This document shows, one piece after another, positions 1,568-41,163 of a DNA stretch of 49,527 bases. Both the position numbers and the translations under genes were made by a program. The notes below the pieces were generated by a model. It was not told the origin of the DNA. It did no database searches and was given only the letters and a program-made list of their open reading frames with translations. This DNA comes from a virus. Location of the stretch: positions 1-49,527 of IMG/VR virus record IMGVR_UViG_3300007344_008457; one strand, given 5' to 3'. Position 1 is the stretch's first letter, and every line of letters starts with the position of its first letter.

Positions 1568-1580
1568 ACAAATCATTTGT
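1568..1580. promoter_or_regulatory. Palindrome between divergent genes, possible operator
   Basis: ACAAAT-C-ATTTGT is a perfect 6+1+6 inverted repeat. It lies in the 96-base gap between the endolysin and helicase genes and its last base is the first base of the extended -10 box at 1580. A protein bound here would block that promoter. No second copy or known binder was identified, so the operator role is inference. Confidence 0.35.
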
Positions 1581-1588
1581 GATATTAT
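1580..1588 (+). promoter_or_regulatory. Extended -10 promoter for the helicase gene
   Basis: TGATATTAT followed by A is the same ten-base string found before six other genes here. With TATTAT at 1583-1588 the expected start of transcription is about 1594-1596. That rules out the upstream ATG at 1579 and makes ATG 1597 the likely start, with essentially no leader and no ribosome site. No convincing -35 box is seen at 17 bases. Confidence 0.65.
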
Positions 1589-1596
1589 ATAGTTAT

Positions 1597-4149
1597 ATGA
1601 TAAAGATTACAATAGAAAATCCAACCAAATGCTATCTCGAAACTTTTACCAAAGAAGTTGTTGATGATTTGAGAAAAAGCCTGACTTATAGTGATACGTC
1701 AGCTCAATTTGCTTTGCAAAAACTCAAAAAAAACAGGTGGTTACAGCAAAACAAGCCTCATACCTATGATTTGAGAAAAAAGGAACTGGAATCCAAACTA
1801 AAAACATGTATGCTTAGAATGGAATCGAACCAGAAATTATACTTTCACCCCGGCTCTTTACCATATTTGTCTGGGTATAGTTTTGATATACACAACCGTA
1901 TTAGCTATCCAGAGCCACGCAAAATGCCGTGGAGAAAGGCTTTGCCATTTGAGCTATATCCATACCAGAAAAAATCTGTAGAACGTCTTATTCAGGCAAA
2001 ACATGGCTGTGTAGAGCTTTGCACGGGATGTCACGTTAAGGGACAAGAAATATTAATGTATGATGGTTCTTTAAAAAAAGTGGAAGATATTGTTGTTGGT
2101 GATTTGTTAATGGGGCCAGATTCTAAACCTCGTAAAGTATTAAAACTACATAGAGGCAAAGAAAAAATGGCAAAAATTATTCCAGTTAAAGGGGAGTCTT
2201 TTATAGTTAATATGGGGCATATATTATCCTTGCAAAGAACTAATAATCAATCTCAATATCGTATAAAAAACAAAAAAAGAAGAAGTGATTTTAAAGGTAC
2301 AAATCCAATTGTAAATATATCAGTAAAAGATTATTTAAAACAAACAAAATCATTTAAACATAGATATAAACTATATAGAACAGGTATTGATTTTAAAAGC
2401 AAATTAACCGCTATCGACCCCTATATATTAGGTATTTGGCTTGGCAATGGGAATTCAGATGGTCCAGCTTTAACTACAATGGATTGCGAAATTAAAGAAA
2501 AATGGATGGAATACGCAAGGCAACTTGGTTTAATGATAAGAGAAGAAGTTATATCAAAAAACAATTTGTCTAAAACTTATTACATGTATAATCCACTTAG
2601 AGGAAAAGGGTTAAATGCACTAAAAAACAATCTAAAACATTACGACTTAATAAAAAACAAACATATTCCAAAAGATTTTAAAATAAATTCAGAAGAAACA
2701 AGACTTAAATTATTGGCTGGTGTAATAGATTCCGATGGATACTTAGGAAATAATTATTATGAAATTTCTCAGAAAAACAAAGAATTATCCGATGATATAC
2801 TTTTTATAGCAAGATCACTTGGTTTTGCAGCTTACCAAAAAAAAGAAAAAAAGAAAAGTCAAAATGGAATCGAAGGAACATATTATAGAATTACAATTTC
2901 TGGTAATATTAATAGAATACCAGTTATATTAGAAAGAAAAAAAGCAAAACCCAGAAAGCAAGTAAAAAATGTATTAAGAACAGGTTTTAAAGTAAAGCAA
3001 TTGCCAGAAAATGAATATTTTGGCTTTGAAGTTGACAACGATAATTTATATGTTATGGATGATTTTACCGTTACCCATAACTCAGGTAAGACAGCTATTA
3101 TTTTGACACTAGCCCGTGAGCTAGGTCTTAAGACCGTAATAGTTACACCTAGTAAGTCTATATTTCTAGAAATTTTGGAGAAATTTGAGCACCATTTTGG
3201 CAAATCTAATGTCGGAGCTTATGGTGGCGGTAAAAAAAGATTAGGTAAATTGTTTACAGTGTGCGTGTCAAAGTCACTAACAATGCTTAAACCGGGTACT
3301 GAAGCCTATGATTTCTTTGCTAATGCTGATGTAGTAATTGGCGATGAATCTCACACACTGGCGGCTGAAACTCTTGAAACAGTATTTCATGGTGTACTAA
3401 ACAATGTTCCATACCGATTCTTTTTATCAGGTACTCAGGTTAGGGGTGACGGAAAAGACAAGTTGCTAGAATCAATTATTGGAAAAAAAGTATATGAACT
3501 ACCAACAAAGGAAGCCGTAGATGGTGGGTACATTTGTCCAGTAAAATTTTTTGTTTTTGAAACTACAAGCAGAGACAGTAAAAACTATACAGACCCACTA
3601 AAAGCCAAAAGAAAACAATTTTTGTACAACCCAAACATTGCCGATATTGCGGCTAAAATTGCTAACTCAGCTTGGAATCAAGCTCAGGAATCAACATTAA
3701 TCTTGGTGGAGGAATTGGAACAGATTAGGATGTTGGTTGACAGGTTAAATGTTCCCTTTGAATATGTACATTCTGCATCAAAAGCTGATGCTGCTAGATT
3801 TGGTCTGGAAACTCGGAAAGTCGATGAAGCAGTTGAAGCTTTTAATCTTGGACAAGTAAGAGTTCTTATTGGTACAAGCTGTATTGCAACAGGAACAAAT
3901 ATGTACTGCACACACAATACTATAAATTGGGTTGGCGGCGGTTCTGAAACCAGAACTAAGCAGGGGGCTGTTGGTAGAAGTGTCCGTATTCTTGAAAACA
4001 GTAAATACAAGGGCTATCACAAGCCCAAGCCTTATTCAAAAATTTATGATTTTAGAGTAAGCAACATAAGTCTTTTAGAAAATCATTTGCAAAAAAGACT
4101 TTCTATGTATAAAGAAACAACAAATGAAATAAAATTTATAAAGGTGTAA
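1597..4149 (+). CDS. UvsW-like superfamily 2 helicase interrupted by an intein
   Basis: Extein parts on both sides of the intein form a superfamily 2 DNA helicase. ELCTG joins SGKTAIILTLARELG to make the Walker A loop, followed by a DE-H box (VIGDESHTL), the FLSGTQVRGDG motif III region, and a C-terminal helicase lobe with LIGTSCIATGTN and QGAVGRSVRI. This fits the UvsW/DEAD-like helicases that remodel replication forks and recombination intermediates. I start at ATG 1597 (850 residues before splicing, about 499 after) because the promoter at 1580 makes ATG 1579 unlikely to be transcribed. It ends one base before the sigma factor gene. The N-terminal 100 residues resemble the UvsW accessory domain only loosely. 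Confidence 0.88.
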   Translation: MIKITIENPTKCYLETFTKEVVDDLRKSLTYSDTSAQFALQKLKKNRWLQQNKPHTYDLRKKELESKLKTCMLRMESNQKLYFHPGSLPYLSGYSFDIHNRISYPEPRKMPWRKALPFELYPYQKKSVERLIQAKHGCVELCTGCHVKGQEILMYDGSLKKVEDIVVGDLLMGPDSKPRKVLKLHRGKEKMAKIIPVKGESFIVNMGHILSLQRTNNQSQYRIKNKKRRSDFKGTNPIVNISVKDYLKQTKSFKHRYKLYRTGIDFKSKLTAIDPYILGIWLGNGNSDGPALTTMDCEIKEKWMEYARQLGLMIREEVISKNNLSKTYYMYNPLRGKGLNALKNNLKHYDLIKNKHIPKDFKINSEETRLKLLAGVIDSDGYLGNNYYEISQKNKELSDDILFIARSLGFAAYQKKEKKKSQNGIEGTYYRITISGNINRIPVILERKKAKPRKQVKNVLRTGFKVKQLPENEYFGFEVDNDNLYVMDDFTVTHNSGKTAIILTLARELGLKTVIVTPSKSIFLEILEKFEHHFGKSNVGAYGGGKKRLGKLFTVCVSKSLTMLKPGTEAYDFFANADVVIGDESHTLAAETLETVFHGVLNNVPYRFFLSGTQVRGDGKDKLLESIIGKKVYELPTKEAVDGGYICPVKFFVFETTSRDSKNYTDPLKAKRKQFLYNPNIADIAAKIANSAWNQAQESTLILVEELEQIRMLVDRLNVPFEYVHSASKADAARFGLETRKVDEAVEAFNLGQVRVLIGTSCIATGTNMYCTHNTINWVGGGSETRTKQGAVGRSVRILENSKYKGYHKPKPYSKIYDFRVSNISLLENHLQKRLSMYKETTNEIKFIKV
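2029..3081 (+). mobile_element. Intein with LAGLIDADG homing endonuclease
   Basis: This 351-codon in-frame insertion begins with Cys (CHVKGQEILMYDG) and ends VTHN before an extein Ser, the expected self-splicing junctions. Block A-like and block B-like strings (VEDIVVGDLLMGPD; GHILSLQ) and the C-terminal FGFEVDNDNLYVMDDFTVTHN region are visible. Two dodecapeptide motifs, ILGIWLGNGNSDG and LLAGVIDSDGYLG, mark a DOD-type homing endonuclease. It splits the Walker A loop of the helicase exactly between CTG and SGKT, so the helicase is inactive until splicing. The endonuclease motifs look intact, suggesting it may still be mobile. Confidence 0.92.
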
Positions 4150-17840: not shown

Positions 17841-18497
17841 ATGACTCAAGAAACTAAAAAACCTAAAGCAAGTGAAAAACTAAAAGCTCTAGAAAACCAA
17901 CTAATGGCCACCGCCAGAAGAACTGGAGAAATGGAGCTTATTATCTACAACCTTTCAAGAGAAAATGAAATTCTTAAAGATGCACTACAGCTATTGCACG
18001 ACAAACAAGAGTCTGTAATTGCATTGCTTAGAGAAGGGCAGGGGTTAAGTGATGATAATATTAACAATAAAGTAACTGACCTTAAAGTATTGGCTCTTAA
18101 ACAAAAAGTAGATGAGCTTGTAGAAAATGGACAAGCTGTTGCAGTTGAAGAAGTTGGCGATAATTCACTAGTTGTTTCCCGTGAACTTAACCAAAAAGGT
18201 GAGGTCGAAAATCCAAGGCTTCAATTTTTAACCTCTAGACTTGTTGAAGAGCTTAAATCCAAGTTTGTCGGAAAAAAAGTTGGTGATTTAATTGAAAACG
18301 ATGGAGAAACTCTCAATATTGAAATTATAGAAATTTATAATTTTGCAGAGCAAAAACTTGCAGGCGACCCAACACCTGAAGAGGTTCAAGAAGCAACGTC
18401 AGCAGTGCAAGATTTGGATATGCCTGAAACTTCTAGTGAAAAAGAAGTTGCCGCAATACAAAATAAAGAAACAGAACAAGAAGTAACTGCGAGGTAA
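17841..18497 (+). CDS. Gre-factor-like protein, paralogue 1 (218 aa)
   Basis: Residues about 10-75 form a two-helix coiled coil with the string LSRENEILKDALQLLHDKQESVIALLREG. Further on comes SKFVGKKVGDLIENDGETLNIEIIEIYNF. That C-terminal string closely resembles the FKBP-like domain of GreA (LIGKKVGD followed by a YEILEI-type ending). A coiled coil followed by this domain is the GreA/Gfh1 architecture, suggesting a factor that enters the RNA polymerase secondary channel. An acidic 45-residue tail is extra. It is followed two bases later by a clear paralogue. The assignment is by pattern, not alignment. Confidence 0.5.
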   Translation: MTQETKKPKASEKLKALENQLMATARRTGEMELIIYNLSRENEILKDALQLLHDKQESVIALLREGQGLSDDNINNKVTDLKVLALKQKVDELVENGQAVAVEEVGDNSLVVSRELNQKGEVENPRLQFLTSRLVEELKSKFVGKKVGDLIENDGETLNIEIIEIYNFAEQKLAGDPTPEEVQEATSAVQDLDMPETSSEKEVAAIQNKETEQEVTAR

Positions 18498-18499
18498 TT

Positions 18500-19000
18500 A
18501 TGACTAAAAAATCAAAAAAACCCACTACAGCCGAAAGATTAAAACTAATAGAATCACAATTTTTTATTATTAATCAAAAATTAAATGATGTTTTACAAGA
18601 AAACAAAAGCTTAAAAACAGCATTAAAAATGGTTGGTGATAAACAGGAATGTGTGGTAGAATTGTTAAAAGAAAAAAAAGCTATCAACCAAAAAAATATA
18701 GACAAAAAAAATAATGAATTAAAAGAAAAAGAGTTGGAGCAAAAAATTAAAGGATATTTAAAGGAAGGAATTTTGGCAAAAGCAGAAAAGGTTAGTGAAA
18801 ATTCTTTTTTAATTTGCGATAATTTAAAAGATAAAGTAAAACAAAGATTTGTAATGCTAAATTATACCGAAGAATTTAGGAAAAAATTTGTTGGCAAAAA
18901 AGTAAATGGAACAGTCACTTTAGATTACAAAGACAAAGAAGGCTCTGTAAAATTTAAAATTTTAGAAATTTATGATTTTACCACAAAAACTGCGGAGTAA
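18500..19000 (+). CDS. Gre-factor-like protein, paralogue 2 (166 aa)
   Basis: It shares the order and spacing of its upstream neighbour. It has an N-terminal coiled coil with LQENKSLKTALKMVGDKQECVVELLKE, then KKFVGKKVNGTVTLDYKDKEGSVKFKILEIYDF. Its 166 residues are close to GreA's usual 158. Like the neighbour it has no signal peptide or membrane segment. The two genes appear to have arisen by tandem duplication followed by divergence, and only the first has an acidic tail. Confidence 0.5.
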   Translation: MTKKSKKPTTAERLKLIESQFFIINQKLNDVLQENKSLKTALKMVGDKQECVVELLKEKKAINQKNIDKKNNELKEKELEQKIKGYLKEGILAKAEKVSENSFLICDNLKDKVKQRFVMLNYTEEFRKKFVGKKVNGTVTLDYKDKEGSVKFKILEIYDFTTKTAE

Positions 19001-20658: not shown

Positions 20659-21031
20659 AGAAGTTAGAGAGTTAAGAGGGAAAATTTTAGGGATGGAAAT
20701 GGAGTTAAATATTATTTCCAAAGACCTTGAAAAATTTGAAATTCAACTTTTTAATAATTTAAAAATAAAAAAAGAAATAGATGAAAACATTGCTTTCTTA
20801 AAAAAAGACAGGGTTACAGTTTCTCTTTTGGAATATAAAAAAATTAAACACCAAAAAGAATTAGTTGAAATGAGAATTAAATATTACAACAAAAAAATAC
20901 AGCCTTTAAAAAATATTTTAAGTTATAAGGAAGATTTTCACAAAAAAGAAATAGAGCGTTTTTACGAAATTTACCGGATGCAGTTTAAAAACAATATATT
21001 GGAGTTTTCTAGTGACAGAAAAAAAGCATAA
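20645..21031 (+). CDS. Hypothetical coiled-coil protein (128 aa)
   Basis: ATG 20645 is preferred over an upstream GTG because AAGGA lies about eight bases before it. The protein is wholly helical and charged (LRGKILGMEMELNIISKDLEKF; KKEIDENIAFLKKDR), a likely two-stranded coiled coil. No cysteines or catalytic motifs are seen. It overlaps the next gene, which begins at GTG 21012. Confidence 0.55.
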   Translation: MKETEEVRELRGKILGMEMELNIISKDLEKFEIQLFNNLKIKKEIDENIAFLKKDRVTVSLLEYKKIKHQKELVEMRIKYYNKKIQPLKNILSYKEDFHKKEIERFYEIYRMQFKNNILEFSSDRKKA

Positions 21032-21218
21032 AATTTATAATGTAAAAGATTATATTGATTATCCTAAAGCTCAAAATAGTATAAGCAAACTTCTTGAAAA
21101 ATACCCCGATGGTGTAAGCGATGAAATAATTGCTAAAGCATTAAATATTAGCGAAGAAGAAGTTGAAGAAATATACCAATCAGCAATCGAAAAAATCAAA
21201 GCCAAACTAGGCGTTTAA
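21012..21218 (+). CDS. Small helix-turn-helix protein resembling sigma region 4 (68 aa)
   Basis: GTG 21012 is preceded at seven bases by GGAG. The C-terminal half, DEIIAKALNISEEEVEEIYQSAIEKIKAKL, follows the pattern of the sigma-70 region 4.2 helix-turn-helix (IA..L..S...V..I...A..K.K). A stand-alone region 4 could supply -35 recognition to a sigma lacking it, such as the protein encoded at 4151, or could act as an ordinary repressor. Followed by a terminator, so it ends the operon. Confidence 0.6.
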   Translation: MTEKKHKIYNVKDYIDYPKAQNSISKLLEKYPDGVSDEIIAKALNISEEEVEEIYQSAIEKIKAKLGV

Positions 21219-21246: not shown

Positions 21247-21273
21247 GGCCTTTCTCTTGAAAGGTCTTTTTTT
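21247..21273 (+). terminator. Rho-independent terminator
   Basis: GGCCTTTC-TCTT-GAAAGGTC forms an 8-bp stem (one G-U pair) with a four-base loop, followed by seven T. It closes the operon ending at 21218. Confidence 0.85.
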
Positions 21274-21276
21274 CTA

Positions 21277-21285
21277 TGATACTAT
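21277..21285 (+). promoter_or_regulatory. Extended -10 promoter of the 21.3 kb RNA candidate
   Basis: TGATACTAT differs by one base from the recurring motif and has the same upstream TTTCTA as the copy at 21420. It starts four bases after the terminator T-run. The predicted start is about 21291-21293, and no protein gene follows before the next promoter. Confidence 0.55.
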
Positions 21286-21291
21286 GTGTTC

Positions 21292-21416
21292 ATGCTACCT
21301 CCCTGTTGTGGGTTTGTAGTCGTATAGGGGCCGAAGTAGAGCACAGGTCGCAACTGTAACCCATAAGGACTACTAAAAAGGAGCATAGGGGTGGTCATAC
21401 AGTGAGCCACCTCTTT
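21292..21416 (+). ncRNA. Candidate structured non-coding RNA with a pseudoknot
   Basis: This stretch of about 125 bases lies between a promoter and a hairpin, has no credible reading frame, and is visibly richer in G and C than its surroundings. GTGGGTT 21308-21314 pairs with AACCCAT 21358-21364, and GTAGTC 21316-21321 pairs with GACTAC 21368-21373. Because the two helices interleave, they form a pseudoknot. An ACAG/CTGT hairpin (21343-21357) sits inside. A TACCTCCC string near the 5' end resembles the 16S anti-Shine-Dalgarno sequence. I do not recognise a known RNA family. It could be a trans-acting RNA or a cis element. Confidence 0.6.
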
Positions 21417-21418
21417 CT
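21387..21418 (+). terminator. Hairpin ending the 21.3 kb RNA
   Basis: AGGGGTGG and CCACCTCT form an 8-bp stem (one G-U pair) with a 12-base loop, followed by a weak TTCT run. It likely ends the small RNA just before the next promoter. The short T run makes termination efficiency uncertain. Confidence 0.5.
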
Positions 21419-21419
21419 A

Positions 21420-21428
21420 TGATATTAT
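21420..21428 (+). promoter_or_regulatory. Extended -10 promoter for the exonuclease operon
   Basis: TGATATTAT followed by A. The predicted start is at 21434-21435, giving a leader of about five bases before ATG 21440. No ribosome site fits in so short a leader. Confidence 0.65.
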
Positions 21429-21439
21429 AAGGTATAAGT

Positions 21440-21634
21440 ATGGATTTAAAAATCGGAAATTATGCAAGCTATTTGCAAGTCAGAGAATTTAAAGAAGAAT
21501 TCAAACCACTAAGAACTCAGGATATGGGCAATGGTATCTATATTGATTTTGATAAAGATGGTAGAATTGTAGGTATCGAAATTCTGACAGAAGTTAAGCC
21601 AAGTTACTATGATGACTATAAGGAAAGAAAATAA
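21440..21634 (+). CDS. Small DUF2283-like protein (64 aa)
   Basis: The string YIDFDKDGRIVGIEIL is the hallmark of small DUF2283-type proteins, whose function is not known. It is preceded by a short basic N-terminus and followed by an acidic/basic tail. It is the first gene after the promoter at 21420, with a leader of about five bases, and its stop overlaps the exonuclease start. Confidence 0.65.
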   Translation: MDLKIGNYASYLQVREFKEEFKPLRTQDMGNGIYIDFDKDGRIVGIEILTEVKPSYYDDYKERK

Positions 21635-22278
21635 TGCACTATTTAGGATTTGATTTAGAGACAGGCGGCTTTGATAAATATAACCATACAATTACCGAAG
21701 CTTATTTTGCTATCTGGGATAAGAAATGGAATCTATTAGATGAGCTTCATCTATATCTTAAAAATGACAATGGTAAAATACACGGCGAAGAGCAAGCTTT
21801 TAGGGTTACTGGTATTGATCCAGAATCTCAACTCCTAGACCCAAACACACTCACTTATACAGAAGGTAGAGCCAAGTTATTAGAAATGCTGGCTAAACAT
21901 AAAATTCCTAAAAAACGCACTCATTTTCGTTATCTTGGTCAAAACATCACATACTTTGATATTCCATTCATGGAAGCTCAAGGCTTTCTAACCGAAGACC
22001 AAGCCAAGAAAGCTGGCATTAATCACAACCCATTAGATACAACAAATATTGTTACATGGCTTAAAGATATGGAAATGCTGCCTAGTAATGTTGGTAGTAT
22101 TAGTAGTTTGATTGAATATTTTGAATTACCTAAAGGTAAGGCTCACCAAGCCAGAGATGACGTTCATATGCAAAAAGAAATTTATATTAGACTTTGCAAT
22201 CTAATAAAAGATGCCAGTAAAGCCAATTTATTGAGTCAAGGTCAAGATAATGATTTACTTAAAATTGTGGAGTTTTAA
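21634..22278 (+). CDS. DnaQ-like 3'-5' exonuclease (DEDDh)
   Basis: FDLETGG (residues 5-11) is Exo I with its DxE pair, GQNITYFDIPFM is Exo II, and HQARDDVHMQKEIY is Exo III with the His-x4-Asp arrangement of the DEDDh group (DnaQ/RNase T). At 214 residues it is a single-domain enzyme. With a DnaE-type polymerase encoded 3 kb downstream and no exonuclease visible in that polymerase, it is the natural proofreading subunit. It overlaps both neighbours by one base. Confidence 0.88.
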   Translation: MHYLGFDLETGGFDKYNHTITEAYFAIWDKKWNLLDELHLYLKNDNGKIHGEEQAFRVTGIDPESQLLDPNTLTYTEGRAKLLEMLAKHKIPKKRTHFRYLGQNITYFDIPFMEAQGFLTEDQAKKAGINHNPLDTTNIVTWLKDMEMLPSNVGSISSLIEYFELPKGKAHQARDDVHMQKEIYIRLCNLIKDASKANLLSQGQDNDLLKIVEF

Positions 22279-32717: not shown

Positions 32718-32724
32718 ACAATAA

Positions 32725-32960
32725 AGCGTTATGTACGGGACGCTATAGAAACACCAACTTGGCTTTTAGAGCGTGTGCCAACTTGAACACTAGGAAAGTC
32801 TCTAAGCTGTTGAGGGAGAGACCAAAAGAGGATGTGGGTTTAGACTCTTTAATTTCGCCTAGCTTGGAGGGTGGTGAGAAACCCGAAGCCGCACCATGGT
32901 CATGTAGTCAGAATAGGCCGGTGACTTATAGACAGGGTTTGAATCCCTGATAGGCGACCA
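32725..32960 (+). ncRNA. Candidate structured RNA with tRNA-like 3' end
   Basis: The 260-base gap 32718-32977 is rich in G and C compared with its surroundings and holds many paired segments. They are AGCGT/ACGCT (32725-32744), TTGGC/GCCAA (32759-32781), GTCTCT/AGAGAC, and AAAGAG/CTCTTT interleaved with GGGTTT/AAACCC as a pseudoknot, then AGTCA/TGACT. The 3' end has a T-arm, CAGGG-TTTGAAT-CCCTG, followed by ATAGGCG-A-CCA. The acceptor strand pairs with CGCCTAG 32856-32862 at six of seven positions. The enclosed 105 bases do not fit a normal tRNA. A tmRNA-like, tRNA-derived or P-RNA-like molecule is possible; I cannot decide. Confidence 0.55.
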
Positions 32961-32977
32961 TTAAAAAGGAAAAACTA

Positions 32978-41081: not shown

Positions 41082-41163
41082 TGCTTGTAGCAGGACTCGA
41101 ACCCGCACGGCCTTAGCCCAAGGGGTTGAAGCCCTCTGTGTCTACCAATTCCACCATACAAGC
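41082..41163 (-). tRNA. tRNA-Leu-like with UCA anticodon
   Basis: The minus strand gives acceptor GCTTGTA/TACAAGC (7 bp), D-arm GTG-GAATTGGTAGA-CAC as in leucine tRNAs, anticodon stem GAGGG/CCCTT and loop CTTCAAC. The variable arm is long (GGC-TAAG-GCC), and the T-arm is GCGGG-TTCGAGT-CCTGC with discriminator A. Positions counted from the D-arm put TCA (41127-41129 on the plus strand) at 34-36. This anticodon reads UGA, making it a putative opal suppressor charged with leucine. CCA is not encoded. It starts directly after the ClpX-like stop codon and is probably co-transcribed with it. Confidence 0.9.

Follow-up and report, generated by a model that had tools for sequence, protein, structure and literature searches.

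In type III toxin-antitoxin systems, the antitoxin is an RNA composed of tandem nucleotide repeats and the gene downstream of it encodes a ToxN/AbiQ-like endoribonuclease, with a Rho-independent terminator located between the RNA and the protein gene (PMC5086642). A sequence-only reading of a viral genome (IMG/VR record IMGVR_UViG_3300007344_008457; the whole analysed stretch of 49,527 nt is called the window here) had described positions 21277-21428 as a self-contained transcription unit for a pseudoknotted small RNA, flanked by a strong terminator and an extended -10 box at one end and by a hairpin and another promoter at the other. The computational analysis presented here favours a different view, to which a probability of roughly 50% is assigned: the segment may be a fast-changing, lineage-specific 5' leader of an operon encoding a DUF2283 protein and an exonuclease, located behind an old and conserved terminator-promoter element.

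Upstream terminator-promoter element

Two signals precede the segment:

21247..21273, + strand: intrinsic terminator of the upstream operon (hairpin 21247-21266 plus seven T), from a terminator scan
21257..21285, + strand: sigma70-like extended -10 promoter (TTGAAA, 17 nt, TG-A-TACTAT), from a consensus scan and conservation in five phages

Both had been noticed in the sequence-only reading and were borne out, the terminator as a hairpin of -11.3 kcal/mol followed by a T-run, and the extended -10 box (21277-21285) as part of a TTGAAA-17-TACTAT promoter with TG that is kept in five phages. They form a composite element, in which the -35 box (21257-21262) sits within the loop and stem of the terminator hairpin and the U-tract provides the 17-nt spacer ahead of TGATANTAT; the predicted transcription start lies at about 21291-21293. 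Only five loci of the same genome neighbourhood were found in IMG/VR (L003, L004, L005, L014, and L015). L003 is identical to the window and L004 shares about 98-99% DNA identity across most of the compared region, whereas L005 shows 67-78% protein identity in the adjoining genes (starting at 21012, 21440, and 21634), and L014 and L015 show 53-72% in the adjoining genes and the phosphoesterase. TTGA and TGATANTAT are invariant in the five distinct sequences (the window, L004, L005, L014, and L015) and, judged by this comparison, the predicted first promoter is real. On the grounds of sequence and conservation, the segment thus has a predicted promoter of its own, as a stand-alone small RNA gene would. 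In addition, the stem of the upstream terminator differs in L004 at 21248 and 21266, and both of these changes preserve pairing, in contrast to the changes in the RNA body described below. Allowing up to one mismatch, the window contains 19 motifs related to TATGATANTAT, versus 8.8 expected, and clear copies of the extended -10 motif elsewhere end 21-34 nt ahead of a start codon; the motif at 21275 lies 154 nt from the next start codon, which makes it an outlier among the promoters of this phage.

The non-coding segment and the claimed pseudoknot

The segment and its two claimed helices are as follows:

21290..21417, + strand: non-coding, G+C-rich segment (leader or small RNA), without a + strand frame or an Rfam match, G+C 50%
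21308-21314 with 21358-21364, + strand: claimed helix 1, GTGGGTT/AACCCAT, its pairs present in the window
21316-21321 with 21368-21373, + strand: claimed helix 2, GTAGTC/GACTAC, also found in the nested fold

As the sequence-only reading had noticed, about 130 nt (21286-21417) contain no credible frame on the + strand, and the sole long frame, a 42-codon ORF beginning with GTG, runs on the - strand. The G+C content of 50% compares with 33% for the whole window and 28% for the remaining non-coding DNA, and is reached by only 0.25% of 126-base windows; other G+C peaks lie mostly within coding DNA or at a tRNA. Because it has no + strand frame and its G+C content is outlying for non-coding DNA, a distinct non-coding segment is genuinely present. 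Rfam covariance models, which had been proposed as a check, gave no relevant match to the segment at gathering or permissive thresholds, in agreement with the earlier reading, which could not assign it to a known family, and the L005 version had no match above the gathering cut-off. ARAGORN at default settings detected no tRNA fold in the segment, and a tRNA or tmRNA reading was dropped, the relaxed search having returned only an antisense, intron-bearing, mismatched fold.

The two interleaving helices exist as letters where they had been reported. Helix 1 has seven pairs including one G-T and can be extended to nine pairs, and the linkers between helices 1 and 2 comprise just 1 and 3 nt, which would strain an H-type knot of 7 bp plus 6 bp. 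An interleaved pair of helices scoring equally well occurred in 203 of 1000 dinucleotide shuffles; when short linkers were required, a condition imposed only after seeing the case, the score was reached in 29 of 3000 shuffles (about 1%) and in nine of 1544 phage windows. The nested fold retains helix 2 and replaces helix 1, and its energy is ordinary (z = -1.24). Regarding covariation, only the window and L004 could be compared, with one pair broken and one becoming G-U: the T-to-C change at 21313 breaks the helix 1 pair 21313-21359, and the C-to-T change at 21373 converts a G-C pair of helix 2 into G-U, which is kept. A third change falls in the outer closing stem (21292-21299/21380-21386), where it breaks the pair at 21380, so that two of the three changes in the L004 RNA body disrupt claimed or closing pairs. 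For the sequence in the same slot of L005, MAFFT yielded no credible alignment with the segment. Substitutions that ignore pairing, which the sequence-only reading had named as evidence against its RNA, were therefore found in part, among very few sequences. The pseudoknot itself was not supported, since the only close variant breaks one helix at one pair and the L005 sequence is unrelated; it is unproven and probably not real. An HDV-like ribozyme was also considered and dropped. The anatomy of these ribozymes includes P4 and J4/2, and the segment has neither, nor a covariance-model match.

The 3' hairpin and the downstream genes

Downstream of the helices, the following features were identified:

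21387..21414, + strand: 3' hairpin, weakly terminator-like, -15.0 kcal/mol in the window and in L004
21418..21428 (-10 at 21420-21428), + strand: second extended -10 motif, TATGATATTAT, without a good -35
21440..21634, + strand: 64-aa DUF2283 protein (PF10049, E 4.7e-9)
21634..22278, + strand: DnaQ-like (RNase_T/DEDD) exonuclease (phrog_192, E 1.2e-17)

The tail after the hairpin (21415-21423) is UUCUAUGAU, a poor U-tract, and in L004 it is UCCUAUGAU, the change at 21416 weakening the U-tail further. The hairpin was absent from the list produced by the terminator scan. As a terminator between RNA and protein gene, or as an efficient terminator of an RNA gene, the segment offers a hairpin of -15 kcal/mol but a poor U-tail; the closing hairpin of the sequence-only reading thus stands as a hairpin, whereas its role as a stop signal appears weak. 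Similarly, its other promoter was found as a -10 motif, which matches perfectly, is conserved in L004, and ends 11 nt ahead of the next ATG, but whose placement would lose the Shine-Dalgarno sequence of DUF2283. Transcripts from this promoter would begin about 4-6 nt ahead of the start codon of DUF2283, past the Shine-Dalgarno-like AAGG at 21429-21432, so the ribosome site would need an upstream transcript. The message from the second promoter could therefore be no more than near-leaderless, and for DUF2283 to be translated normally, the transcript of the first promoter would be required.

The DUF2283 protein is 78% identical in L005, its structural model was too poor to use (pLDDT 52.5), and it had no match in PADLOC. 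Just upstream of the terminator, a 68-aa ORF (21012-21218) shows weak similarity to sigma-70 region 4 (TIGR02937, E 4.7e-4, below the cut-off).

Related loci and insertion history

Searches of phage and plasmid records and genome contigs revealed no relative of the locus at the sensitivities used, and the RNA sequence, searched in phages, plasmids, viral contigs, and genomes, matched only near-identical phages. A prophage or host search of genomes via the phosphoesterase found nothing, and searches for DUF2283 relatives by alignment and degenerate DNA gave no additional loci; L026 was a chance match. In L005, an unrelated non-coding sequence of about 97 nt occupies the slot, followed by DUF2283 and then the exonuclease, and no common sequence or structure could be recognized between this leader and that of the window and L004. 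In L014 and L015, the exonuclease lies within about 25-30 nt of the promoter with neither the RNA nor DUF2283 between them, which implies that the RNA region and DUF2283 were inserted or lost between promoter and exonuclease. The first promoter is the sole promoter seen for the downstream genes in L005, L014, and L015; as no second promoter motif was seen in the L005 leader region, that leader would need to be read through to express DUF2283.

Interpretation of the locus

The unsupported knot, the differences in L004 and L005, the poor U-tail, and the placement of the second start make a variable 5' leader, which might act as an attenuator, the more likely reading than a stand-alone small RNA. 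The promoter shared by five phages and its position directly before the exonuclease in L014 and L015 also speak for a leader, whereas the perfect, L004-conserved second -10 motif would fit a separate promoter. Transcription would start near 21292 and proceed through the leader, a part of it would stop at the hairpin 21387-21414, and the remainder would continue into DUF2283, so that the leader may lower or tune expression of the operon. Prematurely ended transcripts of about 125 nt may accumulate, and read-through might be controlled by a ligand, by a protein (perhaps DUF2283 itself), or by nothing at all. Prefix folding indicated that the 5' end, GCUACCUC, pairs with the rising arm of the hairpin before the hairpin completes, in both the window and L004. 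This competing, antiterminator-like pairing was equalled in 86 of 500 shuffles (17%); since it is no better than shuffled sequence, an attenuator mechanism is only possible, and a conserved regulatory mechanism is unsupported because the leaders of the window and L004 and of L005 share nothing recognizable. Of the self-contained unit, what stands is a promoter-led non-coding segment, with the promoter kept in five phages; that the unit is self-contained is doubtful, given its weak end signal, the placement of the next promoter, and the single promoter seen in L005, L014, and L015.

It is somewhat unlikely, although worth considering, that a stand-alone small RNA gene starts at the first promoter, ends at the hairpin, and acts in trans, for example by pairing of its C-rich 5' end (ACCUCCCUG) with Shine-Dalgarno sequences, which is given as an example only. 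Its own promoter and 3' hairpin, the outlying distance of 154 nt from the -10 box to the next start, the high G+C content for non-coding DNA, and the location of the second -10 motif behind the hairpin would all agree with such a gene; however, the U-tail is weak, the L004 changes disturb the predicted helices, and the RNA sequence is conserved only within the near-identical group of the window, L003, and L004, being replaced in L005 and missing from L014 and L015. The same lack of conservation between lineages whose flanking proteins are 67-78% identical could point to a neutral or decaying insert, DNA that arrived with DUF2283 and is transcribed without any RNA function, and the folding energy (z -1.24), substitutions not steered by pairing, and a G+C content unlike that of the phage, as in foreign DNA, are consistent with it. 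This is doubtful, as the segment is intact in the window, L003, and L004 with hairpin and promoter motifs retained, and the evidence on selection comes from one informative sequence pair only.

Readings that join the RNA to the protein fare less well. A pair resembling type III toxin-antitoxin systems, with an RNA, a hairpin terminator, and a small protein, would account for the order of promoter, structured RNA, hairpin, and small ORF in the window and, loosely, in L005, but it is highly improbable: no tandem repeats were seen in 21290-21417 when the sequence was read directly by eye, the 64-aa DUF2283 protein is no ToxN-like nuclease and is unmatched in PADLOC, and an extra promoter motif lies between RNA and ORF. 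That a new lineage-specific phage RNA and a co-acquired DUF2283 form an RNA-protein module, in which the sister phage swapped the RNA and kept promoter and protein, would be quite a long shot; if true, the locus would matter more. As a variable leader, the locus illustrates a simple route by which phages may change: a gene with its non-coding leader is gained or lost between a fixed terminator-promoter and a replication gene.

Other features of the window and its relatives

A second non-coding, G+C-rich stretch was observed at 32718-32977, with a 69-nt core at 32790-32858 (AGGAAAGUCUCU...AGAGACC AAAGAG...CUCUUU) that forms two hairpins. In the L005 phage (G002:55147-55216, L030), the core retains 94% identity, although most of the proteins compared elsewhere show 65-78%, and one stem change there preserves pairing as G-U. 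The stretch matched no Rfam family and no RNase P model; judged by its sequence, the core is a better conserved phage-RNA candidate than the segment at 21290-21417. The 3' part of the stretch (32890-32961) ends in a tRNA-like manner, with a canonical T-arm (CAGGGTTTGAATCCCTG) plus ATAGGCGACCA, and is missing in the L005 phage; ARAGORN calls nothing there with default settings, and a relaxed run yields nothing but intron-bearing misfits. The 3' half of 32718-32977 also gave the segment's best match within the window (score 40, shuffle mean 24, equalled in one of 500 shuffles; the next matches score 35), a lead that is not significant window-wide.

An 82-nt tRNA at 41082-41163 (- strand), with anticodon UCA, was called Sec, and it may read UGA, since its body resembles a type II leucine tRNA; TGA remains the stop in 21 of 73 frames of the window. 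The helicase gene (1579-4149) contains an intein or homing endonuclease (Hom_end, Hom_end_hint). In L005 (8867-9846), the DNA polymerase III alpha gene is split by an intein-like insert of about 1 kb that the gene in the window lacks. Besides, the ORFs at 17841-18497 and 18500-19000 are neighbouring paralogues with about 32% identity.

Comparison with known systems

The type III loci ToxIN, CptIN, and TenpIN likewise place an RNA and a hairpin ahead of a protein gene, and a pseudoknot was proposed here too; the segment differs in having neither a repeat array nor a ToxN-family toxin, and a type III reading fails on these two points. With H-type pseudoknot ribozymes and riboswitches (HDV-like, pistol, twister, SAM-II, and preQ1), it shares the interleaved order of helices, but not a covariance-model match. 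Phage-encoded small RNAs resemble it as short, promoter-driven non-coding stretches with a 3' hairpin in an intergenic gap, although the segment is known from sequence alone and is conserved only in near-identical phages. Compared with attenuators and structured 5' leaders of phage operons, the segment belongs to no Rfam family, carries a poor U-tail and no conserved sensor domain, and has a competing helix at chance level; like them, it combines a promoter, a structured non-coding leader in which competing pairings are possible, and a hairpin near the first gene.
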